From Achromobacter dolens (GTDB lineage Bacteria; Pseudomonadota; Gammaproteobacteria; Burkholderiales; Burkholderiaceae_B): 64,000 nt of DNA. The notes under the pieces are model-generated. The model ran no database searches, was not told the origin of the DNA, and saw only the letters and a program-made list of their open reading frames with translations. The stretch's first letter is position 1, and every line of letters begins with the position of its first letter. The translations under genes and the position numbers were made by a program. Shown here piece by piece: positions 1 to 14,437 of this stretch. The DNA lies in the NCBI RefSeq assembly GCF_902859745.1, contig NZ_CADIJW010000001.1, positions 62,001-126,000 on the forward strand, in the 5' to 3' direction.

Positions 1-3000
1 GACATGGCGTTTGGCAGCCATCACGTCGTGGTCAAGGTGTTCTCGCCGGGCCTGGATGCGTACGCGCCGGTCTATCCCGAGGGCGTCGATGCCGATGCGC
101 CGGACGCAACGTCCAACTGGGGCTCCTGGGACGTCAACGTGCAGTCGCTGTCGTTCGACGGCGTGATCGTTCCGGGCGTGACCGAAGTCAACCTGTTGGA
201 GACCACGAGTCCCGTGACGGACTACACCCAGCCCATCCTGACGGGCGCGCTGGGCAGCCTGCCCGCGCCAGGCGAGTACGTGGCCATCTACGACGCCCTC
301 AATGGCGGCGCGCCGACACTGGTGGGCAGGGCGGACGTCACGCCTGCCAGCGAAGGCTCGGGAGCGACGTGGCGCTACGAATTCCCCGCTGACAGCGAAC
401 TGAGGGATGGCGTCCACCGGCTGCGCGCCGTGGTCGAGCGCGCCGGGCCGGAGGATGGGGCGCCACAGGCCCTGCTCAGCGCGGCTCCGCCTGCCGTCAT
501 CGTAAGCACCGAGCTGCCCGAGCAGCAGGTGGTGATCGACCAGGTCATGGATGACGTGGGCGTCTACACGGGCCTGATCGTCAGCGGCGCTTCCACCGAC
601 GACACGCAACCTTCGCTGTCCGGGACGCTGTCAGGCCCGTTGCTCGCCGGACAACGCCTGCAAGTCCGCGTGGAGGACGTCAACAATCCCGGCCGGTCCT
701 TCTCCTACCAGCCGCAGATCGATGAAACGGGCCTGGCCTGGTCGCTGCGGATCGATCCCCCGCTGGCCGAGGGCAACTATCGCCTGATGGCGGGCGTGGT
801 GAACGGCGGCGACGCCATGGGACCGCGGCATGCCGAATTCGATCTGCGTATCAACAGCCTGACCTTCAGCGAGCTGGATGACGCCGCCGGCCCCATCAGG
901 GGCAATGTGTTCGACGGCGACGGTCCGTTCCTGACCGACGACCATGCGCCGGTGCTGCGCGGCCAACTGGGCACCGCGCTGGGAGAGGGCGAGGCGTTGC
1001 AGATCGTGGCGGCGCAAGCAGGGAAGGAGACGGTGCTGGGCCAGGCTTCGCTGATCGAGCGCCCGCAGGGCGGATTCACCTGGCAACTGGAGCTGGGCGC
1101 GTCGCAAGGCGGCGCGGGTGAGTTGCCGGAAGGGCATTCCACCTTGTCGGTGCGAGTGGTGGACACGGCCAGCGGGCAGATTCGTCTGGCGGTGGACCGG
1201 GAAATTGACTTCGATGATGGCACGCCCACGGGGGTCGTCAACATCACTGAGGTTCGTGACCAGATTCCTGGCAACAGCGGCTTCGTCGGCGCGCTGGCTC
1301 CCGGTCAGAGCACCGATGATCGCCGGCCGCTGATCTCGGGCGTGCTGCTGGACGGGAATACGCTGCCGGCATCGCGCGCGGTGCAGATCGTAGACTCCGT
1401 GAGACAGCCCGATGGCAGGGTGGTCGAGAACGTACTGGGCCTAGCCACGCTCAATGCCGACGCCGCCGACGGCAGTTGGCGCTTCACGCCGCCCGGAGGC
1501 CTGGAACTGGGTGACCATACGTTTTCCGCCCGGATCGTCAACCGGGCCAACGGGCAATTGGGACCGGTGGGCCAGACATTCACCGCCAGGGAAAGCCAAC
1601 TGACCATCAACGCGGTCCAGGACAGTGTCGGTGCGCTGCAGGGCAATCTGCTGGATGCGAAGCTGTTTGCCCAGCCGCCCTTCACCGACGACGTGCGCCC
1701 GCAGTTGTCGGGCAGGCTGGGCATGCCGCTGGGGCCGAATGAGCGCGTCGCGGTCTATGATTCGGTCGATGGCACCGCTGCGGTCCTGCTGGGCGTGGCG
1801 ACCGTGGCGGACACCACCTGGAGTTTCCAGCCAACCGCGGGTTTGAGCAACGGCGCGCACGGGTTCCAGGTCAGGGTGGAGCGGATCGTCGCCGGTGCAA
1901 GGCCTCAGGTCCTGCTGTCGGATTCGACGGTTCCCATCACGATCGACGCCGTCGCCCAGCCGGTGACGGCGGTGGTGCTCACGGTGAACGTAACCGATCG
2001 CGTGGGCGCCGATGGCTCGCAGGTGGGGCCGGTCGGCTTTCGCGCCAGCACCGACGACCGGAGGCCGGTGGTCAGCGGCACTCTGAGCGAGGCGGTGGGG
2101 GCGAGCCAGCAAGTGCAGGTGTTCCTGTCGCGCGAGGACGGCGCCATGCGCCGCCTGGGCGCGGCAACCCTGAACGGCGTCAACTGGACCTACACCCTGA
2201 CCGAAGCATTGCCGGATGGGCTCGCGACGCTCCACGCGCGAGTGGTGGCGGTCAATTCGGGGCTGACCAGCAATACGCTGGCGACCTCGGTGAACGTGAA
2301 CAGCATCCAGGTGTCCGAAGTGGTCGAACCGACCACGGGCGTCAATGTGCTGGGCCGGGATGGCCATGGCACCGCCGACAACCAAGTGACGCTGCGTGGC
2401 CAGCTCGGGGCGCCGCTGCTGCTGCCGTCGGAGCGGGTGACGATCTACGTGAAGGGCGAGGGCGCCGCGCTGTTCACGCCGGTTGGCGTGGCGAAGTTCG
2501 AGGCGAACGGCACCGACTGGACTTTCAGCCTGCCGCAAAGCAATGGCGCGCCGCGAGTCTGGCAGGAGGGACGCTACGAGGTGTCGGCGCGTATCGAGGA
2601 TGCCTCCACGCGCGCGGTGCGGGCGGTGACGAAGGTGGGCTTCACGGTCGACACCCAGGTTCCCCAGGAACACGCGGAAATCGTCGGCTACGAAGACCAC
2701 GCCGGGCCGCTGCAGGCCCTGTTGACGCAGGCGGGCGTCAGCACCGATGACACTCGCGGCATCGTGCGCGGCAAGCTCGACAAACCGATCAACGCCGATA
2801 CCCGCCGCGTGGTGTTGTATGACCGTATCGACGGTCAGATGGTGCGGCTGGGAGAAGCCTTGGCCACGGACACCGAGTGGACTTTCCAGAACCGGGAACC
2901 GCTTGGGGCTGGTGTCCATACGTTCCTGGCGCGAGTCGAGAATATCGTATTGGGCAAGGAGGGCGATGCCTCGTCGGAATTCACCATCCATGTGCAACAG

Positions 3001-6000
3001 GTAACCCTGGACTCCATCGCGGATCCGGCGCACCTGGACCAGAACATCCTGCTGCCCGGGGTCGATGGCGCCTCGAAACAGGGGAAGTTCGTTTTTGGCG
3101 GTCACCTGGGCGCGCCGCTGGGAGAGGGCGAAGTCCTCAAGCTGGTTATCGACGATGTGCCTCGCGATGGCCATGTCACGTTCGATCAGGCCAGCCTGAC
3201 GTGGTCGGGCACGCTGGCCGATGACGAAGTCCTCGGGGATGGCGCCCATGTCATCGCCGTCCAGGTCACGGACCATGACGGCGCCGAACTGCGGGCGGTG
3301 TCGGCATCGCATACGGTCTACATCGACGGTGGCGCGCCCACCGAGACCGCGACGATCAGCCAGGCCCGCGACATATACGGGGCGGGATCCTCATTCACGG
3401 GCGCCAACGCCACCGGGGTGCCGTCCGACGACGCGCTGCCACAGCTCAAGGGCAGTGTTTCCGCGCGGCTGGCCGGCGGGCTGAGCGTGGCGGTGTACGG
3501 CCGCTTGCCCGGGCAGGCCGATCAGGTCCTCCTGGGCTATGCCACCGTGGATGCGAATGCCGAATGGACGTTCCAGGTCGACCGGGAGCTTCCCTTCGGC
3601 GACACGGTATTCAATGCCCGCGTGGTCAACCGGGCGGATCCTCAGACCCTGCAAGGCCCGCTTTCGTCGGACTTCGTCGTGCACCAGCAGTCCGTGAGCA
3701 TCACGGCGCTGATCGATGACCAGGGGGATGTCCGCGGAGATCTGTTCGCGCTTGAATCCCTCGGGGCAAACGGACGCCCGGTCCTCATGCGCACCGACGA
3801 CGCGCGTCCGACCTTGAAGGGCCATCTGGCCCAGCCGCTCGGCAGTGGCGAGGTGCTGGCGATCTTCCGAGGCAGCAACAGGCTCGGCGAGGCCCAGATG
3901 GACGCCGACGGAGTGTCGTGGTCCTTCACGCCGCAGGCGGACGTGGAGACGGGCAGCCAGCGCTTCAGCGCCGTGCTGCTGACGTCCGACGGGGTGTCGC
4001 GCATGTCGGCGCAAACCCCGGAAATCACGGTGTCGACGCTGCGGCCGGGTCATGCGGTGGCCATCACGTCGGTGCTGGATTCGAACAATCTGCTGGGTAC
4101 GTGGGACCGGACCGCGCGCGGGCAGGAGGTGCCGCGGCGCGAGGTGGTGACGACGGCGGTGCTCGACGATACGCGTCCGCGCTTGTCGGGCACCTTGGGG
4201 CAGGCGCTGAACGCCTTCGAGGTGCTGCGGGTCTACGCCGAGCATGACGGTGTTGTCCAACTGCTGGGCACGGCTAATACCGACGGCCTGACCTGGTCGT
4301 TGCGGCCGCCGGTATCGCTGCCGGCCGGCGCAAGCCATATTTACGCGGCCATCGAGAACAGAGGGGATAGCTTCGGCGCGGTGCGGTCGGATGCGGTCGA
4401 TGTCAACGTGCTGTCGCTCTCGCCGATATCGGTGCAGGACCTGTCGGCGCAGGGCGCTGTCGAAACGCTGCGTCCGATCCTGCGGGCCAGGGTGAATACG
4501 GATAGAACGCAGGGACTGTCGGTGCGCGTGCTGGTCGATGGTGACGCGGCAGGCGAGGCGTCCGTCGGCGCGGACGGCGCGTGGACGTTCCAACTGCGCG
4601 CGGACCTGGCGACGGGCATGCACCGGGTCGAATACGTGTTGCTCGATGGCGGCGTGCCGGTCGAGGCGGTACGGAGCCTGGCGCCCGTTAATGTCATGGT
4701 GAGCGGCGCCGATGCGCCCGCGTTCGGCGTCACGTTGACGACAGGCGCCGAGCCCATCTTCACCGACCGCGGCTTGACGATGCTGACCGGCACCACCACC
4801 GAGGCGGTGACGCCGGGCATGGGCGTCATGGTGTCCATCGATGGCAAGGACGTGGGGGTGGCCGGGTTCGATGCCTCGGGTACCAATTGGTCCTACACGC
4901 TGTGGGCGCAGTCGCCGGGCGCCCACCAAGTGGCTGTCAGACCGGTCAATCTGGCGACGCTGGCGCCGGCCCCGGACAGCGAGGCGCGGACCACCGTCTA
5001 CCAGAATGCGATCACGATCGACGCGCCTGACAACGCGCAGCTCCTGGCGGACGGCGGACTGGTGGCGTTGATCGGCAGCGGCGACCTGATGTTGTCCGGC
5101 CACCTGGCGAGCGAGTTGCCGGCCGGGACCACGCTGCAGGTACGGCGCGATGGCGTGGCATTGGGAAGCGCGACGCTGGAAGGCAAGAAATGGAGCTATG
5201 CGCTGACGTCTTCCGATCAGTTGGCGGGGGATCATCAGTACAGCGTGGTGGCGCTGCCAGCGGGCGTGGATGCCGGGGATGCCAGCGTGGCGCCCGCGTT
5301 GTCGGCGCAGACGGCGTTGACGCTGGTGGCGGCCGGAAGCGGGCCGAGTCCGGATCTGTTCGCGTCGATCACGGGGCTGATAGACGGCCAGCGGCCGGGC
5401 CAGTTGAGCGCCAATTCCACCATCGAGGGCCAGATCGCGACATTGCGCGGCACCGTCAGCACCGCTTTGGGTGGACAGGATCAGATCGTGGTCTACGGAC
5501 AACCGCAGGACGGCGAGCGGCAGCGGCTGGGCGTGGCCCGGATGTTGACCGACACGACCTGGGAGTTCCGGATAGGCGAGGCCCTGCCGTCGGGCTCCTA
5601 CACGCTGAGCGCGATTCCCGAGAACCGGTTGACGGGGATCGGCAACGACATCGCCGCGGCGATAGCCAATTTCCAGGTCCAGCATCTCACCATCACCGAG
5701 CTGAACGACCAGACGGGGGCCTTGCAGGGCAACCTGCTGGATCAAGATCCAGGCTCGCGCCTGACCGACGAGGCCACTCCGCTCATCAAAGGCACATTGA
5801 GCGCGCCGCTGGCCGAGTTCGGGCAACGCCTGCGCGTGTCGGATACCTTCAATGGCGCCACCTCCGAGCTGGGCCAGGCCGTGATCGACAGGGCCGACCC
5901 GCTGAAATGGTCCTTCCGGCCGGATGCGCCGCTGCTGGACGGCCGGCACGTCCTGTCGGTGGAAGTGGTGGGGGCCACCACCGCCATTGCCGAGACCGGG

Positions 6001-9000
6001 GACAGCGTGTCCTTCCGCAAGGACAGCAGCACGCCCGCCCAGACCGTGTCGATCGTGACCGTGCGCGACGATGACGGCCCGGTCGTGGGCAATGTGCCGA
6101 TGGGTGGGGACATCGACTTCCGGCGTCCGCTGGTTTCCGGCAGGCTCAGCGCGGCGTTGTCGAACGCGCAGGTGTTGCGCCTCTGGCAGGATGACGGCCA
6201 GGGCAACGTCAGTTACCTGGGTGAGGCCACGGTCACCGGAACCAATTGGCAATGGCGCAGCGACGTGGACATGGCGCTCGGCACCGTCAATCTGTTCGCG
6301 ACAGTGGACAACGCGGCGCGGGCGGGTACCACCTATACCGCGCAGGATAGCGCGATCCATGGCAGGCCTTCGCCCACCTTCAGCTTCCACCTGCAAGGGC
6401 TGGAGGGCATCGAGGTCAAGGACGCCAAGGGCGTCGTGGTGGGGCAGAACACCAGCGAGCGGCAGTTCACGATCAGCGGAGCGCTGGCCGCGCCGCTGGC
6501 CGATGGCGAGTACGTGGAAGTCCGCGACGGCGCCCAGCTCCTGGGACGCGCCAGTGTTCAAGAGCAGCAGTGGCATTTCGACATCGAGGTGCCGCTGGGC
6601 AATGGCCAGCACGACTTCAAGATCTCGATCGGCGGCGCCGGCAACAGCCCCACGACGCCGTTGGTGTTCGAGACGCTGGCCGTCAACGTGCATGACGCCG
6701 CGCCGGACCCCTTGCAGGCGGGGTTGATCGAGGCCGTGATCGCCCTGTCGACCGGGCAGGTGCTGTCGGCCGACAGCCGTTTCGACACGCTTGCGGCGCA
6801 AAGTGTCCGGCCTGGCCAGAGCCTGGATGGCAAGCGGGTCGGGATCTTCGGCACGCTGGCGCGGGAGCCGCGCGCCGGCGACCTGGTGCAGGTCTTCGAC
6901 AACGACGTGCTGCTGGGCGCAGCCGCGGTTGTCGGCACGCGCTGGCGTTTCAACGCGCCGCCCTTGTCCGAGGGCGAACACACGTTCTCGCTGCGCATCA
7001 ACGAGCAGCCGGTGCCCGCGCCGGATCCGGTCCATGCCGCTGCCTATCCGGTCGTGGTGCTGGGTGACGACGCCATCCGCATCGATGCGCTCGCCAGCCG
7101 CGTGGATCCGGCGCAAGCCTTGAACGGATCGTTGTCTCACGGCTTGGGACGGGACGAGGTCCTGGGCGTGTACCGCACGCTGAACGGCGAAACCGTGCGG
7201 CTGGGCGATGCCACGGTACAGGGCGCCGCGGACAAGGACGGCCGCTTCGCGTGGTCGTTCACCCCTGCCGCGGGCATGGGGCTGGGCGTGGGCGCACAGA
7301 CCCTGACCGTGCAGGTCGAGGGGCCGACGCACACGCGCGTTGCCGCGGCGCAGGCGCTGCCCGTGCTCATCGACGAGGCTGCCATTGCGACAGCGGCGAC
7401 GATATTGTCCGTGTCGACGCCCCAAGCCAGCGGATTGTCCGGCGTGGAGTCTGGCGCGACGATCGCCAGCGCCGCGCTGGTGGTGAGCGGGGCGCTGGAC
7501 CGCGGTCTGCTGGGCAGCGAGCGGGTCGTCCTGTATGACGGCGATACCCGGATGGGCTACGCCAGCGTCCATGCCAATGGCCGCAACTGGACCTACGTGT
7601 CGCCAGGGTTGAACAATGGCTCGCACACGTTGACCGTGGCGGTGGAGAACGAACCGGGCGTCAAGGGGGCAACCTCGCAGCCGTTCGCGTTGACCATCGT
7701 CGCCCCTGCGCCGGGCCAGGTCGTCACGCCGGTCAGCGTTCAGAACGGCGACGCGGCGCTGGGCAGCGCGGTGCAGCTCGATACCGGCGGGTTCTCGGTA
7801 TTCGCGTGGAATATGGGGAGTGCGCAGGCGACCAATATCAACAACATCTGGGCGACTTCCACGGCCAATCCCGCTGGCCAGGGGCAGTTGCCGGAGCTTA
7901 ACTTCAGGGGGTACAACAGCGCGCTGCTGCCGGGTGTGCCGTATGCCACCATCGCCAACTACGTTGGCAGCGGCTGGTTCCACGTCAGCCCCGAACAGGC
8001 CGGCATCTGGACATTCCGATCGCCGGTGGTGGACGATTTCGAGATCGTCAGCGTCGATGGCGACCGGGTGATGGTCGGCCGCGAGTATCTGCGAAATGGC
8101 ATCCAAGGCGACGTCAGCCTGGATGCGGGCTGGCACTACCTGCGGGTCGATACCGGCAACACCGGCGGGGTGGGGTCTTGGGTGATGCAATGGCGCCGCC
8201 CAGGCGAATCCGAGTTCAGCGTGATCCGCGACGTGCAAACCGGTCCAACCGAGCAGGGCGTGGCCCTGGGGGCGAAGGACGCGGACCACCACGTGAAGCT
8301 GGACTATACGTTGAGCGCGCCCCTGGGCAAGGACGAGACGTTGCAGGTGGTGGACTTGACGGCGCATCGAACGGCAGAGGGGCTGCGCGTGCAGTTCTGG
8401 AATCTGCCCCAAGATGCCAACCGCAGCTTCCCGGACGCATTGGCGTTGACCGCGACCGTGGCGCCGGTGGTGTCCCGCATGGCCGACAACCTGCCCTACG
8501 ATTGGCGGCACGCGTTCGACAGCGGCGTGACCATGTCCGACGCTTCGCTGATCGGGCGGGCGACGGGTTGGTTCCATGTCGCGCAGGCGGAGGCCGGCAC
8601 CTGGCTGATCCGCAGCACGACCCGGGACGATCAGGTTCAGCTCAAAATCGACGGCTACACCCTGCTGTCGCCCGACAGGGGAATGCCCCACGGGCAGTAT
8701 GCCTCCCTGCACCTGGAGGCGGGATGGCACTACCTGGATTCCACGCTGTTCCAGCAGGGGGTCCTGAGAGATGACTGGCATGTCAGCGTCATCAAGCCTG
8801 GAGAGACCGCCTTCGCGCCGCTGACCGGATTCGCGCAGTTCGAGTCCGCCGTGTTGGGCAACGCGGTCAACGAGGCCGGGGACCCCACCGCCTTCTCCTT
8901 CCAGGCCCAGGTCGACGATGGCCAGAGTCATACCTTGTTGGCGACCGTGACCCCGGCCGGCGCGGACGGGCCGGTGTCCGACCCGATGACGCATGGCGAG

Positions 9001-9468
9001 CCCGGCATGGTGTTCCTGGCCAATGGCGCCTTCGGCATCGTTGACAAGAAAGTCGAGGTCACGGGCGACGGGCAGTTGGTCGATTTCGCGCGCAGCCACG
9101 GCACGATCAACGCGGTGGATCTGGACGCCGACAAGGCGGCCCATGAGCAGGGCAACACCCTGGTCATGGACTCTACTGATGTGCGGCTGATGTCGGATGT
9201 CGGGTCGGCCATGTCCCTGAGCAACGACGGCTTGTTGAACGGCGCGTTCCGCCAGTTGGTGGTACAGGGAGGCGAGCACGATGTGCTGCAGTTCGGCCAA
9301 CTGGGTGGCGCGCGGTTCTGGACGGAAAGCGGCCAGATCAAAGGGAACGACGGAGCCGATTACACGGTGTTCACCGAACCCGCACTGGCGCTGCAGGTGA
9401 TCGTGGACACCCACGTCGCGCTTGCGCTGGACAGCGCGCTGCATTCCAGCGCCCATCCGGTCATCTGA
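1..9468 (+). CDS. Giant Ig-like repeat surface protein (adhesin-like), 5' end outside window
   Basis: The reading frame is open from the first base, so the N-terminus lies upstream; about 3155 residues are visible. About 22 modules of 100-125 residues repeat, each with a recognisable core (S/T-TDD-x-RP-x-x-SG-x-L, then W-x-F and a G-x-H/Y segment), for example near residues 74, 197, 310, 436, 560, 682, 913, 1140, 1263, 1387, 1920 and 2037. This is the pattern of bacterial Ig-like domains in giant adhesins. Near residues 2597-2740 and 2793-2940 there are two related modules with G-W-F-H-V, D-D and L-x-A-G-W-H-Y-L motifs, resembling PA14 folds. The last 130 residues (N-T-L-V-M-D, VVQGGEHDVLQF, a D-Y-x-V-F strand) resemble the C-terminal module of type I-secreted giant adhesins. 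Type I export is an inference; no transporter is in the window. MotB- and MotA-like genes follow directly. Almost no cysteine is visible. Confidence 0.85.
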   Translation, partial: DMAFGSHHVVVKVFSPGLDAYAPVYPEGVDADAPDATSNWGSWDVNVQSLSFDGVIVPGVTEVNLLETTSPVTDYTQPILTGALGSLPAPGEYVAIYDALNGGAPTLVGRADVTPASEGSGATWRYEFPADSELRDGVHRLRAVVERAGPEDGAPQALLSAAPPAVIVSTELPEQQVVIDQVMDDVGVYTGLIVSGASTDDTQPSLSGTLSGPLLAGQRLQVRVEDVNNPGRSFSYQPQIDETGLAWSLRIDPPLAEGNYRLMAGVVNGGDAMGPRHAEFDLRINSLTFSELDDAAGPIRGNVFDGDGPFLTDDHAPVLRGQLGTALGEGEALQIVAAQAGKETVLGQASLIERPQGGFTWQLELGASQGGAGELPEGHSTLSVRVVDTASGQIRLAVDREIDFDDGTPTGVVNITEVRDQIPGNSGFVGALAPGQSTDDRRPLISGVLLDGNTLPASRAVQIVDSVRQPDGRVVENVLGLATLNADAADGSWRFTPPGGLELGDHTFSARIVNRANGQLGPVGQTFTARESQLTINAVQDSVGALQGNLLDAKLFAQPPFTDDVRPQLSGRLGMPLGPNERVAVYDSVDGTAAVLLGVATVADTTWSFQPTAGLSNGAHGFQVRVERIVAGARPQVLLSDSTVPITIDAVAQPVTAVVLTVNVTDRVGADGSQVGPVGFRASTDDRRPVVSGTLSEAVGASQQVQVFLSREDGAMRRLGAATLNGVNWTYTLTEALPDGLATLHARVVAVNSGLTSNTLATSVNVNSIQVSEVVEPTTGVNVLGRDGHGTADNQVTLRGQLGAPLLLPSERVTIYVKGEGAALFTPVGVAKFEANGTDWTFSLPQSNGAPRVWQEGRYEVSARIEDASTRAVRAVTKVGFTVDTQVPQEHAEIVGYEDHAGPLQALLTQAGVSTDDTRGIVRGKLDKPINADTRRVVLYDRIDGQMVRLGEALATDTEWTFQNREPLGAGVHTFLARVENIVLGKEGDASSEFTIHVQQVTLDSIADPAHLDQNILLPGVDGASKQGKFVFGGHLGAPLGEGEVLKLVIDDVPRDGHVTFDQASLTWSGTLADDEVLGDGAHVIAVQVTDHDGAELRAVSASHTVYIDGGAPTETATISQARDIYGAGSSFTGANATGVPSDDALPQLKGSVSARLAGGLSVAVYGRLPGQADQVLLGYATVDANAEWTFQVDRELPFGDTVFNARVVNRADPQTLQGPLSSDFVVHQQSVSITALIDDQGDVRGDLFALESLGANGRPVLMRTDDARPTLKGHLAQPLGSGEVLAIFRGSNRLGEAQMDADGVSWSFTPQADVETGSQRFSAVLLTSDGVSRMSAQTPEITVSTLRPGHAVAITSVLDSNNLLGTWDRTARGQEVPRREVVTTAVLDDTRPRLSGTLGQALNAFEVLRVYAEHDGVVQLLGTANTDGLTWSLRPPVSLPAGASHIYAAIENRGDSFGAVRSDAVDVNVLSLSPISVQDLSAQGAVETLRPILRARVNTDRTQGLSVRVLVDGDAAGEASVGADGAWTFQLRADLATGMHRVEYVLLDGGVPVEAVRSLAPVNVMVSGADAPAFGVTLTTGAEPIFTDRGLTMLTGTTTEAVTPGMGVMVSIDGKDVGVAGFDASGTNWSYTLWAQSPGAHQVAVRPVNLATLAPAPDSEARTTVYQNAITIDAPDNAQLLADGGLVALIGSGDLMLSGHLASELPAGTTLQVRRDGVALGSATLEGKKWSYALTSSDQLAGDHQYSVVALPAGVDAGDASVAPALSAQTALTLVAAGSGPSPDLFASITGLIDGQRPGQLSANSTIEGQIATLRGTVSTALGGQDQIVVYGQPQDGERQRLGVARMLTDTTWEFRIGEALPSGSYTLSAIPENRLTGIGNDIAAAIANFQVQHLTITELNDQTGALQGNLLDQDPGSRLTDEATPLIKGTLSAPLAEFGQRLRVSDTFNGATSELGQAVIDRADPLKWSFRPDAPLLDGRHVLSVEVVGATTAIAETGDSVSFRKDSSTPAQTVSIVTVRDDDGPVVGNVPMGGDIDFRRPLVSGRLSAALSNAQVLRLWQDDGQGNVSYLGEATVTGTNWQWRSDVDMALGTVNLFATVDNAARAGTTYTAQDSAIHGRPSPTFSFHLQGLEGIEVKDAKGVVVGQNTSERQFTISGALAAPLADGEYVEVRDGAQLLGRASVQEQQWHFDIEVPLGNGQHDFKISIGGAGNSPTTPLVFETLAVNVHDAAPDPLQAGLIEAVIALSTGQVLSADSRFDTLAAQSVRPGQSLDGKRVGIFGTLAREPRAGDLVQVFDNDVLLGAAAVVGTRWRFNAPPLSEGEHTFSLRINEQPVPAPDPVHAAAYPVVVLGDDAIRIDALASRVDPAQALNGSLSHGLGRDEVLGVYRTLNGETVRLGDATVQGAADKDGRFAWSFTPAAGMGLGVGAQTLTVQVEGPTHTRVAAAQALPVLIDEAAIATAATILSVSTPQASGLSGVESGATIASAALVVSGALDRGLLGSERVVLYDGDTRMGYASVHANGRNWTYVSPGLNNGSHTLTVAVENEPGVKGATSQPFALTIVAPAPGQVVTPVSVQNGDAALGSAVQLDTGGFSVFAWNMGSAQATNINNIWATSTANPAGQGQLPELNFRGYNSALLPGVPYATIANYVGSGWFHVSPEQAGIWTFRSPVVDDFEIVSVDGDRVMVGREYLRNGIQGDVSLDAGWHYLRVDTGNTGGVGSWVMQWRRPGESEFSVIRDVQTGPTEQGVALGAKDADHHVKLDYTLSAPLGKDETLQVVDLTAHRTAEGLRVQFWNLPQDANRSFPDALALTATVAPVVSRMADNLPYDWRHAFDSGVTMSDASLIGRATGWFHVAQAEAGTWLIRSTTRDDQVQLKIDGYTLLSPDRGMPHGQYASLHLEAGWHYLDSTLFQQGVLRDDWHVSVIKPGETAFAPLTGFAQFESAVLGNAVNEAGDPTAFSFQAQVDDGQSHTLLATVTPAGADGPVSDPMTHGEPGMVFLANGAFGIVDKKVEVTGDGQLVDFARSHGTINAVDLDADKAAHEQGNTLVMDSTDVRLMSDVGSAMSLSNDGLLNGAFRQLVVQGGEHDVLQFGQLGGARFWTESGQIKGNDGADYTVFTEPALALQVIVDTHVALALDSALHSSAHPVI

Positions 9469-9478
9469 GAGGGTTGTG

Positions 9479-10522
9479 ATGCAAAGTCAATCTTCGTCAA
9501 ACATCAACTACTGGCCGGGCTTCGTGGACGCCTTCTCCAACCTGGTGCTGGCGCTGGTCTTCGTGATCGTGATCCTGGCCATGTCGCTGGGGATGTTCAG
9601 CGGCATCATGGCCAAGATGGCGATCCAGCGGGCGCTGGTCGAGCAGCGCCTGGATGAATCGCGGGCGGCCTCGGCCTCGCTGGCGGGGGATGGCACGGGC
9701 GGAGCGTCGGCGGGCGGCAAGGATCCCGCCGCGCGGGCTGTCGCGCAGCCGCAGGCGCGCGACGGGGGCGATCAGGCGCAGGACGCACATGCGGAGGAGG
9801 CGATGGATGCCTCCGATAGCGCCGACGATGTAAAGGCGCAGGCCTCGCCGCCCGCGCAGCCGGCATCGGCGCCGCCTGGCAACGACCCGCGGCCTGAACA
9901 GACGGCGGAGGCAGGCGGTGACGCGCCGGGCATGCCGGCCGCCGTTCACGCCGAGCCCGCTTCCAGCGCCGATGTCAGGGCCGTGTCCGGTGGGCGCGAA
10001 GGCGCGGCGCGGGACGATGCCTCCCCCAGGCGGGAGGCGCAGGCAAGCGCTGCCGCCGCCAGGGAGGAGGATGCCCTGGAGCATGCGACCTTGCGCCGCG
10101 AGAACGATGCCCTGCGGCAGGAACTGGCTGCCTTGCGCAAGAAGCAGGCTGCGCTGGAACATGGGGCGGGGAACGGGGCGGGTCGCAACGAGGCGGGAGC
10201 GGGCAAACAGAAACCGGTCGACAAGTTCGGGCCGACGATGCCGCAGGAAGACCGCCGTTTCCGCCAGCAGATCGAGGACGACCTGCAACGCACGCTCAAG
10301 GAGTTCGAGGCGCGGCGCGACAGCGGCGCCAGCATCGACGTGGTGATCTATGTGCCGAATTACGCGCTCACCGAAAACAAGCGCACGGCTTTGTTCTATC
10401 TCATTTCTATCAAGGACTATTTGATGAAGCGGAAAGTGGCGCCCGGGCAGATCCGGATGCACATGACCCCGGCGCCCGCCGGGCAGAAAGACATGACGGT
10501 CTCCATGTCCGTCGAGCCTTGA
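9479..10522 (+). CDS. MotB/SiiA-like inner-membrane protein with long low-complexity linker
   Basis: 347 residues. I chose the ATG at 9479, 10 nt after the adhesin stop, because a GAGGG stretch lies just before it and the protein then begins with a proper MotB-like N-terminus. A short cytoplasmic tail and Y-W-P-G-F-V-D17 lead into one membrane helix at residues 19-40; Asp17 sits where MotB-family proteins carry the proton-accepting aspartate. Residues 55-195 are Ala/Gly/Asp/Glu-rich and probably disordered, 197-228 form a coiled coil, and 255-347 look like a degenerate OmpA/MotB-type domain in which I cannot find the usual peptidoglycan-binding N-x-x-L-S-x-x-R-A motif. The next gene encodes its expected MotA-like partner. 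By analogy with SiiA of Salmonella SPI-4 it may energise or regulate surface display of the giant adhesin; this is an inference. Confidence 0.8.
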   Translation: MQSQSSSNINYWPGFVDAFSNLVLALVFVIVILAMSLGMFSGIMAKMAIQRALVEQRLDESRAASASLAGDGTGGASAGGKDPAARAVAQPQARDGGDQAQDAHAEEAMDASDSADDVKAQASPPAQPASAPPGNDPRPEQTAEAGGDAPGMPAAVHAEPASSADVRAVSGGREGAARDDASPRREAQASAAAAREEDALEHATLRRENDALRQELAALRKKQAALEHGAGNGAGRNEAGAGKQKPVDKFGPTMPQEDRRFRQQIEDDLQRTLKEFEARRDSGASIDVVIYVPNYALTENKRTALFYLISIKDYLMKRKVAPGQIRMHMTPAPAGQKDMTVSMSVEP

Positions 10523-10532
10523 GGAGCCGATC

Positions 10533-11840
10533 ATGATTCGTTTCCGATCGATACGCTGGCAAGTGGCGAAGGTGCTGTCGCCGCTGATCTGCGCGGCGGT
10601 GGCGTCAGCCATCTGGCCGGACCTGATCAAGCTGGCGCTGGGATCAGGCCATGCCATCACCTTCGTGATCCTGACGGGTATCGCGGTGGGCACCCTGCTC
10701 ATCGTCAACCAGAGCCTGCGGATCAACACGCGATGGGATGCCCTGAGGCGATTCATCGCCGAGGTCGAGGGCCAGGGGAAGGACTGGCGCACGCTGCCTT
10801 ATGTCAAGACCACCCTGGGCAAGGTGCTGCTGCGCCAGGAAACCCTGGCGCTGGGGCAGGAGGCCCTGGAAAAGGACGTACAGGACCTGCGGGTGCGCGT
10901 CTATCAGGCCCAGATATTGCCGGATTTCCTGGTCGGCCTGATGGTGGCGCTGGGCCTGGTCGGCACGTTCATCGGCCTGATCTATACGCTGGGCGACGTC
11001 GGCGGGATGCTGGCGGAACTCAACACGAACTCCGTCGATGGGTCCCAGGTCGAGCAGGTCTTCGGGCGCCTGGTGGCGCAGTTGCAGAGTCCGCTGACCG
11101 CCATGGGCACGGCCTTCGCGGCATCGCTCTTCGGCCTGGTGGGCTCGATCCTGCTGGGCCTGATGATGGTGCTGCTGCGGGGGCAGATCGAGGATTACAT
11201 CCGCGCCGTCCGCAAGTTCATGCTGGAGTGCCTGGACGTTCGCAACCAGCGCCTGAGCATCATGCCTGGCGACGTGGTGAACGAGCAGATGCTGGCGCGC
11301 CAGGTGCACCACCTGGGCGAACTGGTCGAGCGGCTGGCGCAGCGCCAGGCCGAGACGCTGCAGTCGCACGAGGCCTTGCAGCGGCAATTGGCGCAGGCGC
11401 GCGAACGCGACGAGCGTGTGCAGGCGCAGATCGAGGCGCGCTTCGAGCAGATCGGCGACTGGCAAGACGCGGCGATCGCGCAGGTGAACACCGTCAAGGC
11501 GCGCTCGGACTCGATCGACGAGGCGCTGACGCTGCTGATCGAGCGCGGTGGCGCCGTGGTCGGCGCGGTACGGGCGTTGGCGGATGCGTCAACCGAGGAG
11601 TCGGCCGAGCTGCGCCGCGCCGCCGGCGTGCTGGCGGAGCTGGGCGACGCCCAGAAGGCGCAGAGCCAGGTGCTGGATCAATGCGCGCAGGGGCTGGCCC
11701 AGGCGCCGCGGATACTGGAAACGCTGCAGGCCTGGAATCAGGCGGTGAATGCGCACCAGGATGCGCGCCTGCAGGGGTTCGAGACGCAGTTGCAGATGAT
11801 CCGGGCGTTGCTGGAGCGCAGCCCGGTCGGCGGCGCCTGA
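10533..11840 (+). CDS. MotA/TolQ/ExbB-like proton-channel protein with coiled-coil tail
   Basis: 435 residues starting 10 nt after the MotB-like gene with GAGGAG upstream of the ATG. Predicted membrane segments are at about residues 12-32, 38-60, 128-155 and 188-215. The last two contain the MotA/ExbB signature pattern (G-L-V-G-T-F-I-G-L and A-F-A-A-S-L-F-G-L-V-G). Residues 245-430 form a long charged, Gln/Glu/Arg-rich coiled coil in the cytoplasm. Such proteins form pentameric ion channels around a MotB-like dimer and turn proton flow into work across the periplasm. SiiB of Salmonella is the best functional analogue because it too is encoded beside a giant Ig-repeat adhesin. A long cytoplasmic tail also occurs in ZorA of Zorya defence systems, but no other Zorya gene is present. 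Last gene of this operon. Confidence 0.82.
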   Translation: MIRFRSIRWQVAKVLSPLICAAVASAIWPDLIKLALGSGHAITFVILTGIAVGTLLIVNQSLRINTRWDALRRFIAEVEGQGKDWRTLPYVKTTLGKVLLRQETLALGQEALEKDVQDLRVRVYQAQILPDFLVGLMVALGLVGTFIGLIYTLGDVGGMLAELNTNSVDGSQVEQVFGRLVAQLQSPLTAMGTAFAASLFGLVGSILLGLMMVLLRGQIEDYIRAVRKFMLECLDVRNQRLSIMPGDVVNEQMLARQVHHLGELVERLAQRQAETLQSHEALQRQLAQARERDERVQAQIEARFEQIGDWQDAAIAQVNTVKARSDSIDEALTLLIERGGAVVGAVRALADASTEESAELRRAAGVLAELGDAQKAQSQVLDQCAQGLAQAPRILETLQAWNQAVNAHQDARLQGFETQLQMIRALLERSPVGGA

Positions 11841-12820: not shown

Positions 12821-14437
12821 TCAGTTCACGTAGGCGGGGCTCAATGGCGCGGAGATGGCCTGGGGCGTGACGTCGATCACCGTCCCGGCCGGCAGCTTGA
12901 AGAACGCGGCGCTGGCGGCCAGGCGCTTGGCCTGTTCCTCCAGCGACGAGGCCGCCGCCGCGGCTTCCTCGACCAGGGCGGCGTTCTGCTGGGTGACGTC
13001 GTCCATCTGCGTCACGGCGCCGTTGATCTGGTCGATGCCGACGGACTGCTCGGTCGAGGCCTCGGTGATTTCCGCCATGATCTGGGTGACGCGCTGCACC
13101 GACGCCACGATTTCCTGCATGGTGTCGCCGGCGGCGCGGACCTGGTCGGCGCCGCTTTCGACGTTGCTGGAGGACTGTTCGATCAGGTCCTTCACTTCGC
13201 GGGCGGCCTGGGCGCTGCGCTGGGCCAGCGTGCGCACCTCGCCGGCGACCACCGCGAAGCCCTTGCCCTGCTCGCCGGCGCGGGCGGCCTCGACCGCCGC
13301 GTTCAGGGCCAGGATGTTGGTCTGGAAGGCGATGCCGTCGATCACCGACACGATCTCCGAGATGCGGCGCGAGCTTTCCGAGATGCGGGCCATGGTCTGG
13401 ACCACCTGGCCGACCGCCTCGCCGCCGCGCAGGGCGATGGCGCGGCTCTCGGCCGCCAGGGTGTTGGCCTGGTGCGCGTGCTCGGTGTTCTGCTTGACGG
13501 CCGTGGCCAATTCTTCCATGGACGCGGCGGTCTCTTCCAGCGACGCGGCCTGTTCCTCGGTGCGGGCCGACAGGTTGGTGTTGCCCGAGGCGATTTCGGC
13601 CGCGCCGGTGTTGATCTCGGTGACGCTGCGGCGCACTTCGCTGACGGTGCGGGTCAGGCTCTCCTGCATGCGCTTGAGCGCCGTGAACAGCACGCCGATC
13701 TCATTCTTGGAATTGACCGTGACGCGCTGGGTCAGGTCGCCGGAGGCGATGCGGTCGAAATGCACCGCGGCGTCCCTGAGCGGTTGCAGCACCTGGCGGC
13801 CGATGAAGCGCCAGCAGCCCAGCGCCAGCGCGGCGGCCAGCGCCAGCATGATGATGGTGGACAGCTCGGCCCGTTCGTAGCGCAGGTCGGACGCGGTATT
13901 GATCTCGGCGCTGCGGCGTTCGGTGTGCGCCAGGAAGGCGGTCACGCGTTCGGCGAAGCGGGCGTCGGCGCCGCGGGTGTCCACCACGGCGGCGGCATAG
14001 CCATCGGCGGATTGTTTCTGCAGCGCCTGCTCCAGCGCTTCGATGCTGCGCACATAGGCGGTGAAGACGGTGTCCAGTTCGCTGGCCAGCTTCAGGCCGG
14101 CCTCGGTGCTCTTGGGCACGCGCTGGTAGATGGCGAAGTGCTTGCGCGCTTCCTGCAGGTACTGCGTGGCCTGGTCGACACTGCCCTGGGCCTGGCTGCC
14201 CTTGCCGGACACGATGTCCAGGTAGGCGGCGACCAGCATCAGCCGGCTGCGCAGCAGCAGCGTCTGCGTTTCGTACAGCGGCCGGGTCTGCTCGGCGGCG
14301 ACCGAGTTCAGGTCGTCCACCGCGACGTCGGCGTCCCGCGCATAGATCCAGCCCATGCTTGTGGCCGTTGTCAGCGCCAGGAGGAAGATGGCCATCACGG
14401 CCAGCAGGCCGGTGCGTATCTTCAGGTTCTTAAGCAT
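12821..14437 (-). CDS. Methyl-accepting chemotaxis protein (transmembrane)
   Basis: 538 residues. Membrane helix at about 11-31, a periplasmic four-helix-bundle-type ligand domain at 32-190, second helix at 192-210, HAMP at 212-265 and a signalling hairpin whose tip carries the invariant G-I-A-F-Q-T-N-I-L-A-L-N-A-A-V-E-A-A-R-A segment near residues 360-385. It senses an extracellular signal and controls CheA. The C-terminus (P-A-Y-V-N) lacks a clear CheR/CheB-tethering pentapeptide. The gene is monocistronic and preceded by an AT-rich region with a palindrome. Confidence 0.95.
   Translation of the reverse strand: MLKNLKIRTGLLAVMAIFLLALTTATSMGWIYARDADVAVDDLNSVAAEQTRPLYETQTLLLRSRLMLVAAYLDIVSGKGSQAQGSVDQATQYLQEARKHFAIYQRVPKSTEAGLKLASELDTVFTAYVRSIEALEQALQKQSADGYAAAVVDTRGADARFAERVTAFLAHTERRSAEINTASDLRYERAELSTIIMLALAAALALGCWRFIGRQVLQPLRDAAVHFDRIASGDLTQRVTVNSKNEIGVLFTALKRMQESLTRTVSEVRRSVTEINTGAAEIASGNTNLSARTEEQAASLEETAASMEELATAVKQNTEHAHQANTLAAESRAIALRGGEAVGQVVQTMARISESSRRISEIVSVIDGIAFQTNILALNAAVEAARAGEQGKGFAVVAGEVRTLAQRSAQAAREVKDLIEQSSSNVESGADQVRAAGDTMQEIVASVQRVTQIMAEITEASTEQSVGIDQINGAVTQMDDVTQQNAALVEEAAAAASSLEEQAKRLAASAAFFKLPAGTVIDVTPQAISAPLSPAYVN

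Follow-up and report, generated by a model that had tools for sequence, protein, structure and literature searches.

LapA, the adhesin of the protease-operated LapDG system, is a large substrate of a type I secretion system (T1SS) that is kept on the cell by its N-terminus. According to the available text of PMC9430717, ArtA of Achromobacter xylosoxidans is likewise a large T1SS adhesin whose N-terminus keeps it on the cell, and a LapG-like protease gene lies near by. The closest described counterpart of the system reported here is that of Salmonella pathogenicity island 4 (SPI-4) of Salmonella enterica, where SiiA and SiiB are encoded together with the SiiCDF T1SS and the giant immunoglobulin (Ig)-like adhesin SiiE. 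SiiAB is described as a proton channel in the available text of PMC6272769, in which an uncoupler reduces the surface retention of SiiE and external acid increases it. As summarized in the accessible part of a 2025 review (PMC12607715), deletion of siiA/siiB leaves SiiE secretion in place and reduces invasion, SiiA binds peptidoglycan through R162/R167, which are needed for this binding, and SiiB contacts the ABC protein SiiF. Here we describe a stretch of 64,000 nucleotides of Achromobacter dolens (the window; assembly GCF_902859745.1, contig NZ_CADIJW010000001.1, positions 62,001 to 126,000, forward strand), which begins with the 3' part of a gene for a giant Ig-like adhesin, followed by genes for a MotB/SiiA-like protein (MBL) and a MotA/ExbB-like protein (MAL). 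We consider it probable that MBL and MAL constitute an ion-driven complex of a SiiAB-like kind, which serves the T1SS of this adhesin specifically and controls adhesin retention.

The complete gene row reads OEP-ABC-HlyD-adhesin-MBL-MAL, where OEP stands for a TolC-like outer membrane factor; the part of it that falls in the window has the following features.

1..9468, forward strand: giant Ig-like adhesin, represented by the C-terminal 3155 of its 4067 residues (open reading frame, Pfam, profile of its own repeats)
9479..10522, forward strand: MBL, MotB/SiiA-like, 347 aa, with a single hydrophobic stretch by hydropathy, a long low-complexity linker and a small C-terminal domain
9527..9529, forward strand: codon of MBL Asp17 (motif WPGFVDAFSN), unchanged in all 26 rows of alignment A6; candidate ion-binding Asp
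10196..10519, forward strand: MBL periplasmic domain of the OmpA/SiiA kind, without the GHTD signature of OmpA
10382..10384, forward strand: codon of MBL Arg302, Arg in 25/25 aligned rows, aligning with Arg60 of PDB chain 6qvp
10533..11840, forward strand: MAL, MotA/ExbB-like, 435 aa, with hydrophobic stretches fitting four transmembrane (TM) helices and a C-terminal tail of ~240 residues
10950..10979, forward strand: MAL TM3 motif LGLVGTFIGL (G141, L142, G144, T145, F146, G148 and L149 invariant in 26/26)
11091..11147, forward strand: MAL TM4 motif (P187, M191, F195, S198, G201 and S205 invariant in 26/26)

Directly upstream of the adhesin gene we identified a complete T1SS, consisting of an HlyD adaptor (L007:15961-17199; TIGR01843, 295 bits, above cut-off), an ABC transporter (TIGR03375, 624 bits, below the cut-off of 693) and the outer membrane factor (L007:12351-13796, 481 aa; PF02321, E 9.3e-33), whose stop codon overlaps the probable start of the ABC gene. 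A reading made earlier from the sequence alone (the sequence-only reading) had named a lack of T1SS genes upstream as the main refutation of its proposal of a related but differently ordered SiiAB-like system, and it stands on this point because the complete T1SS lies directly upstream. Two other gene models were discarded: a 234-aa frame in the space before the ABC gene, which is occupied by the 481-aa OEP gene, and a 210-residue extra N-terminus on the ABC protein, where the frame merely runs open and the likely start overlaps the OEP stop. Downstream, the gaps between adhesin and MBL and between MBL and MAL are 10 nt each, as the sequence-only reading had stated; its labels for the two genes are weak when Pfam is applied to the window proteins by themselves, and hold through the family, as set out below.

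The adhesin gene starts 2736 bp 5' of the window, at G000:C1:59265, and its frame is open from the window edge, so that an intact 12.2-kb gene has its 3' part in the first 9468 bases of the window. In the genome's own upstream sequence the full open reading frame (L008:4265-16468) encodes 4067 aa with a single stop at its end. A profile derived from the repeats of the adhesin itself finds 26 Ig modules (25 strong and one weak), of which 23 (22 strong and one weak) start inside the window; the earlier count of about 22 modules thus holds for the strong modules of the window, but its size of over 3150 residues falls short of the full protein. The adhesin matches Pfam Big_13 (E 3.9e-49) and an NCBIfam model of a Ca2+-stabilised adhesin repeat. 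The Pfam scan with HemolysinCabind, representing RTX nonapeptide repeats, gave no match in the window adhesin and found the family in three of five scanned adhesin frames of relatives, and a search of the PDB with the whole adhesin gave 0 matches at E up to 0.01. Two C-terminal stretches at residues ~3460-3870 (GWFHV...GWHYL) resemble PA14-type domains by eye and have no Pfam match.

MBL possesses the N-terminal TM helix with a conserved Asp that is a trait of the MotB superfamily, and its residues 5-36 match PRK09039 (E 1.6e-6). Asp17 is found in all rows of A6, from which the Asp-less second MBL copies of L104 and G216 were left out. In these two cases a second MBL adjoins the first (L104:8096-8719 and L065:11614-12663) and has Ala in place of the TM Asp (WPGYVAA, WQGYVAA), perhaps giving an axle of mixed composition in which one ion site is dead. 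On its own, the window MBL has neither a match to Pfam OmpA nor the GHTD signature; Pfam OmpA matches 13 of 26 family members at E up to 0.1, the window MBL being among those without a match. Similarly, the window MAL scores 13.4 bits against Pfam MotA_ExbB, under the cut-off, and belongs to the family members without a match, while 17 of the 26 do match at E up to 0.01; an hhalign comparison with four own-genome rows gave E 3.2e-5 over 49 columns. Judged by these profiles, the link to the MotA/MotB superfamily is weak for the window proteins alone and clear for the family as a set. MAL is called MotA/ExbB-like by family, and its correspondence to SiiB is putative. Frames of 1100-1467 aa that weakly match MAL (27-34 percent; e.g. 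G000:C28:44979-45731) are present in 30 of the 37 same-genus genomes and probably represent a further family of long MotA-like proteins.

When named genomes were scanned with a profile made from six T1SS-linked MALs, 589 stretches were listed (more exist), of which 412 were confirmed and the best 80 of these kept; E-values of the locus scans refer to candidate stretches only. T1SS or adhesin genes lie beside MAL in 29 of the best 80 loci (27 found by script through HlyD, RTX or adhesin, and L101 and L104 by inspection), a proportion that is no frequency because the query used T1SS-linked MALs and only the best 80 were kept. In a MAL tree of 84 rows (the 80 loci plus the window, G002, G008 and G216), a branch with support 100/99.2 separates 34 rows from 50, with the 31 T1SS-labelled rows together with L101, L104 and L129 on one side; its bootstrap is unsettled, and the tree has eleven long-branch rows (G008 and L110 the longest) and places where long branches meet. 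Among the 80 loci, MBL lies upstream of MAL in 28/28 cases on the T1SS-linked side and 0/41 on the stand-alone side, and the GHTD signature is present in 0/28 T1SS-linked MBLs and 39/41 stand-alone ones (MBLs were found by motif and are present in 27/30 T1SS-side and 41/50 stand-alone loci). By tree position, gene order and MBL type, the T1SS-linked MALs are a lineage separate from the stand-alone MotA/MotB-like pairs, and the window MAL falls inside it. The sequence-only reading had asked whether the channel genes also occur without the adhesin; they do, but among the stand-alone pairs, which form a lineage of their own and differ in gene order and MotB type, and not within the window's lineage, with the exception of L129, where an adhesin is not in view.

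The stand-alone pairs, of the PRK09039 'peptidoglycan-binding protein' kind, have in common with the window pair the WPGFVDA motif, the TM Asp and the MotA-like TM3/TM4 motifs. They differ in having the MotA-like gene first, a MotB-like protein that contains GHTD and has Glu, Asp or His in the position of the Arg discussed below, in having no HlyD or adhesin found adjoining, and in lying on the other side of the tree. An ABC-transporter frame is in view in 29 of 53 loci without a T1SS label (e.g. L105, L122, L134), on the opposite strand in 28 of them, and is a possible second partner of stand-alone pairs. In a survey of the class, matches were obtained in 19 of 369 genomes besides the window's own, and no HlyD was found in those 19 regions, some of them on short contigs. 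The only MotA-type chain among the five PDB matches of a six-row MAL profile was Zorya ZorA (8qyh, weak, E 0.011); unlike Zorya, the window row has no defence gene among those scanned, and its partner protein is SiiA-like.

The order adhesin-MBL-MAL, which the sequence-only reading had proposed to look for in homologues, recurs in two relatives. G002, from the same genus, has the same six genes in the same order (87 percent identity to the window row for OEP, 91 for ABC, 93 for HlyD, 77 for the adhesin and 88 for MAL, and 63 percent over 241 residues for MBL), and A. pulmonis (L090) has adhesin-MBL-MAL in a locus that begins within the adhesin. A close MAL is present in two of 37 same-genus genomes, the window's own included, and a distant one in G008. 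The 8-kb stretch beside the A. pulmonis row corresponds to G000:C5:129804-137768 (four large pieces, 83 to 97 percent DNA identity), and the downstream flank of the window has no match to the L090 flank; since the matching stretch is on contig C5 of the window's genome and the row is on C1, and the flanks differ, the row occupies different places in the two species. The different neighbours and the presence of a close MAL in only two of the 37 genomes indicate that the row is accessory and probably mobile; a scan of viral contigs gave no confirmed match. The order most often seen elsewhere is OEP-MBL-HlyD-MAL, with RTX and ABC genes around it where in view (22 of the 27 script-found T1SS loci). 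Its holders include Herbaspirillum (five loci), Methylobacillus (three), Methylovorus, Limnohabitans, Pseudomonas sp. IPO3778, Ideonella, Paucibacter, Aquabacterium and others.

The substrates of these rows share an N-terminal domain with the pattern V.V.DVDLVL...DG....L..GAL.A....KV.F.DG (three invariant columns among the 18 rows of A8), which resembles the BapA prefix and in the window adhesin lies outside the window. Near-duplicates and cut rows were omitted from all alignments (A5, 19 rows; A6, 26; A7, 25; A8, 18; A9, 26), A7 being without L094, L095, L148, G002, G008 and G216. The window domain is 20-36 percent identical to the other A8 rows. The shared domain was found in 20 of the 27 T1SS loci, the substrate frame of the remaining seven starting at the locus edge, and in one of 53 other loci, the adhesin-linked L101, where a second adhesin follows MAL. 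Most of those rows had built the profile; when groups were left out, the rows were still found at E 4.7e-12 to 3.8e-25 (window adhesin, 4.3e-16). With E up to 1 as the limit, the BapA prefix-like model NF033677 recognises eight of the 19 substrate N-termini, the best at 9e-5, so that this kind of domain is common to the substrates and BapA-type adhesins, but the window adhesin itself has no NF033677 match. A T1SS adhesin row without the motor pair also exists: G143 has a weak match to the domain (E 3.5e-4) in an ordinary T1SS row.

Across 399 genomes of the order, the domain is present in six, and a T1SS-type MAL was found in four of these six and in no other genome (Fisher p 1.4e-8; p 7.2e-8 if one includes G045, a fifth genome above the MAL threshold that holds a stand-alone pair). 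The five genomes with a MAL match are a lower bound, because the profile search scored at most three candidates per genome; G000, G060 and G108, two of them of one genus, supplied profile rows, and only G216 and G214 are out-of-sample. In G216 the domain opens a frame of 9542 aa, and a glycosyltransferase-OEP-ABC-HlyD-MBL-MBL-MAL row follows directly downstream. This frame (G216:C16, L183/L184) contains ALTTAQ repeats (PF20080; part of it was scanned) and lies beside a family-41 glycosyltransferase (cf. L065:17444-19441), so it is possibly a glycosylated giant adhesin. G214 has MBL and OEP, and no MAL was found in it. Its locus (L181:9826-16032), with the domain as a free 130-aa frame beside MBL, then a partial-EAL/Ig-like frame and then OEP, is apparently a rearranged relic.

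A profile of 25 MBL periplasmic domains has as its best match among 177,635 PDB sequences the chain 6qvp_A ('Inner membrane protein'), which we take to be the SiiA domain and which is covered over nearly the whole domain. Direct hhalign comparison of the MBL domain with 6qvp gave a score of 27.2 (probability 54, E 1.3e-4), and the highest control scores were 19.7 (200 shuffles) and 18.7 (400 window pieces); because the score exceeds all of them, the two domains appear to be related. The residue aligned with 6qvp Arg60, which fits SiiA R162, is Arg in 25/25 T1SS-linked MBL rows, window included, and in the stand-alone MBLs the same place, five residues before the OmpA Arg, is occupied by Glu (27), Asp (10) or His (1) and in 0/38 by Arg, four frames without the motif having been set aside. 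The R162 numbering was derived by spacing: the aligned part of the 6qvp chain has a single pair of Arg residues five positions apart, the same distance as between SiiA R162 and R167. The second Arg of this pair (6qvp Arg65, at the place of SiiA R167) is present in 22 of 25 rows. In the alignment, the Arg at the R162 place sets the T1SS-linked MBLs and 6qvp together, apart from the stand-alone MBLs.

The row thus shares with SPI-4 a giant Ig-like adhesin, a full T1SS, a MotB-like gene directly before a MotA-like one, and an OmpA/SiiA-kind periplasmic domain with an Arg fitting R162, which supports the proposal of a related system. It is differently ordered, as had also been proposed: the SPI-4 genes run from siiA to siiF with the motor genes first. 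The MBL linker is also much longer than its SPI-4 counterpart. The further idea of the sequence-only reading, that proton flow may drive or gate display of the adhesin, draws on the published work in Salmonella. Extending the functional evidence from Salmonella to this row by likeness, we infer that the row would be one self-contained surface-display system. The T1SS would export the adhesin C-terminus first in a single step, and MBL and MAL would form a MotA/MotB-type inner-membrane complex working like SiiAB, with ions passing Asp17 of MBL inside a ring of MAL and the periplasmic domain of MBL docking on the cell wall. This complex would act on the stalled T1SS, in which the BapA-prefix-like N-terminal domain would be the last exported part of the adhesin, and would, depending on the proton motive force, keep the adhesin parked on the surface or release it. 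Retention by way of LapG, in contrast, was rejected. The sequence-only reading had suggested looking for a retention module beside the T1SS genes, and none of the LapG type was found: LapG (PF06035) has 0 matches in the window's own genome, and adhesin residues 1-250 contain no dialanine motif [TPA]AA[GTR]. The window row has the channel-like gene pair instead.

Several observations weigh against this interpretation. The profile match to 6qvp is weak (E 0.086), and next in rank come Pal (0.12) and then a foldase, an OmpA domain, a component of a sodium-driven flagellar motor, and YiaD; with a full-length MBL profile 6qvp came sixth (E 0.09), and a seven-row MBL profile did not list it. Among stand-alone OmpA-type domains, 18 of 39 reach or exceed the hhalign score of 27.2 (range 15.6 to 37.5), so this score is not specific to SiiA. 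The residue in the position of SiiA R167 is Tyr in the window protein and in A. pulmonis, and Ala in L104; with this Tyr, wall docking may differ in the window row. Since the score is unspecific and Tyr stands at that place, we say that the pair would work like SiiAB, and not that it is SiiAB. Within the T1SS-linked branch, L129 has no adhesin in view, G008 has MAL before MBL (MAL-OEP-MBL-HlyD-RTX-ABC), and two loci carry the additional Asp-less MBL.

On the 3' side of MAL, a RidA-type gene and then a chemoreceptor gene are found on the other strand, so the row seems to end after MAL.

12821-14437 of the window, reverse strand: chemoreceptor gene (TarH-HAMP-MCP), slightly past the end of the row

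An unlikely alternative to retention is that the pair boosts secretion, the proton gradient pulling or pushing the long adhesin through the T1SS rather than holding it. Many of the linked substrates are indeed long (frames from over 2000 up to 3051 aa, several of which are truncated where the locus ends, and the 9542-aa frame of G216), and the C-terminal tail of MAL, with a median of 251 residues in T1SS-linked proteins and 180 in stand-alone ones (25 and 45 measured, 14 of 84 MALs without the motif having been dropped), could reach the ABC protein. However, not every linked substrate is a giant: those of Methylobacillus have 969 to 1057 aa and that of G008 has 1243. In Salmonella, by the account in PMC12607715, SiiE is still secreted without SiiA and SiiB, and for the large adhesin ArtA the available text of PMC9430717 names only hlyD, hlyB, tolC and a LapG-like protease.

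It is considerably less probable that the pair is a sensor, anchored in the wall and linked through the T1SS to the adhesin, that converts pull into a signal, either by ions or by conformation. Such a role would be compatible with a domain of the cell-wall type and a parked N-terminus, and the chemoreceptor gene is near by, but that gene looks ordinary and lies on the opposite strand, and no signalling gene is present within the row. Least probable of all, and hardly to be expected, is a general cell-envelope MotA/MotB-like pair that merely neighbours the adhesin. Stand-alone relatives do make up 50 of the 84 tree rows; the window MAL, however, lies on the T1SS-linked side of the branch with support 100/99.2, MBL type and gene order differ from those of stand-alone pairs in nearly every case, the gaps are 10 nt, and the linkage recurs in many families. 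The reading of the pair as an ion-driven, SiiAB-like complex for adhesin retention is the one that we prefer.

Rows with the same kind of motor in many other proteobacteria suggest that the ion-driven adhesin motor is wider than the single studied Salmonella case. SiiAB is listed as a T1SS motor in the introduction of PMC12204202, and the available part of the 2025 review (PMC12607715) calls it unclear how SiiAB uses the proton gradient for SiiE retention or release; in titles and abstract beginnings, with few subscription papers among them, T1SS-linked MotA/MotB pairs outside Salmonella are not described. More tentatively, and at slightly less than an even chance, the motor pair and the common N-terminal docking domain could represent a general mechanism, operated by a motor, by which large T1SS adhesins are parked and released across the Pseudomonadota, serving Ig-type, RTX-type and other substrates, and existing beside the protease-operated LapDG system. 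The N-terminal domain would then be the part of the adhesin on which the motor acts. The occurrence of the family in environmental, culturable bacteria such as Methylobacillus, Methylovorus and Herbaspirillum, together with this common domain, would offer many test objects and a candidate contact site.

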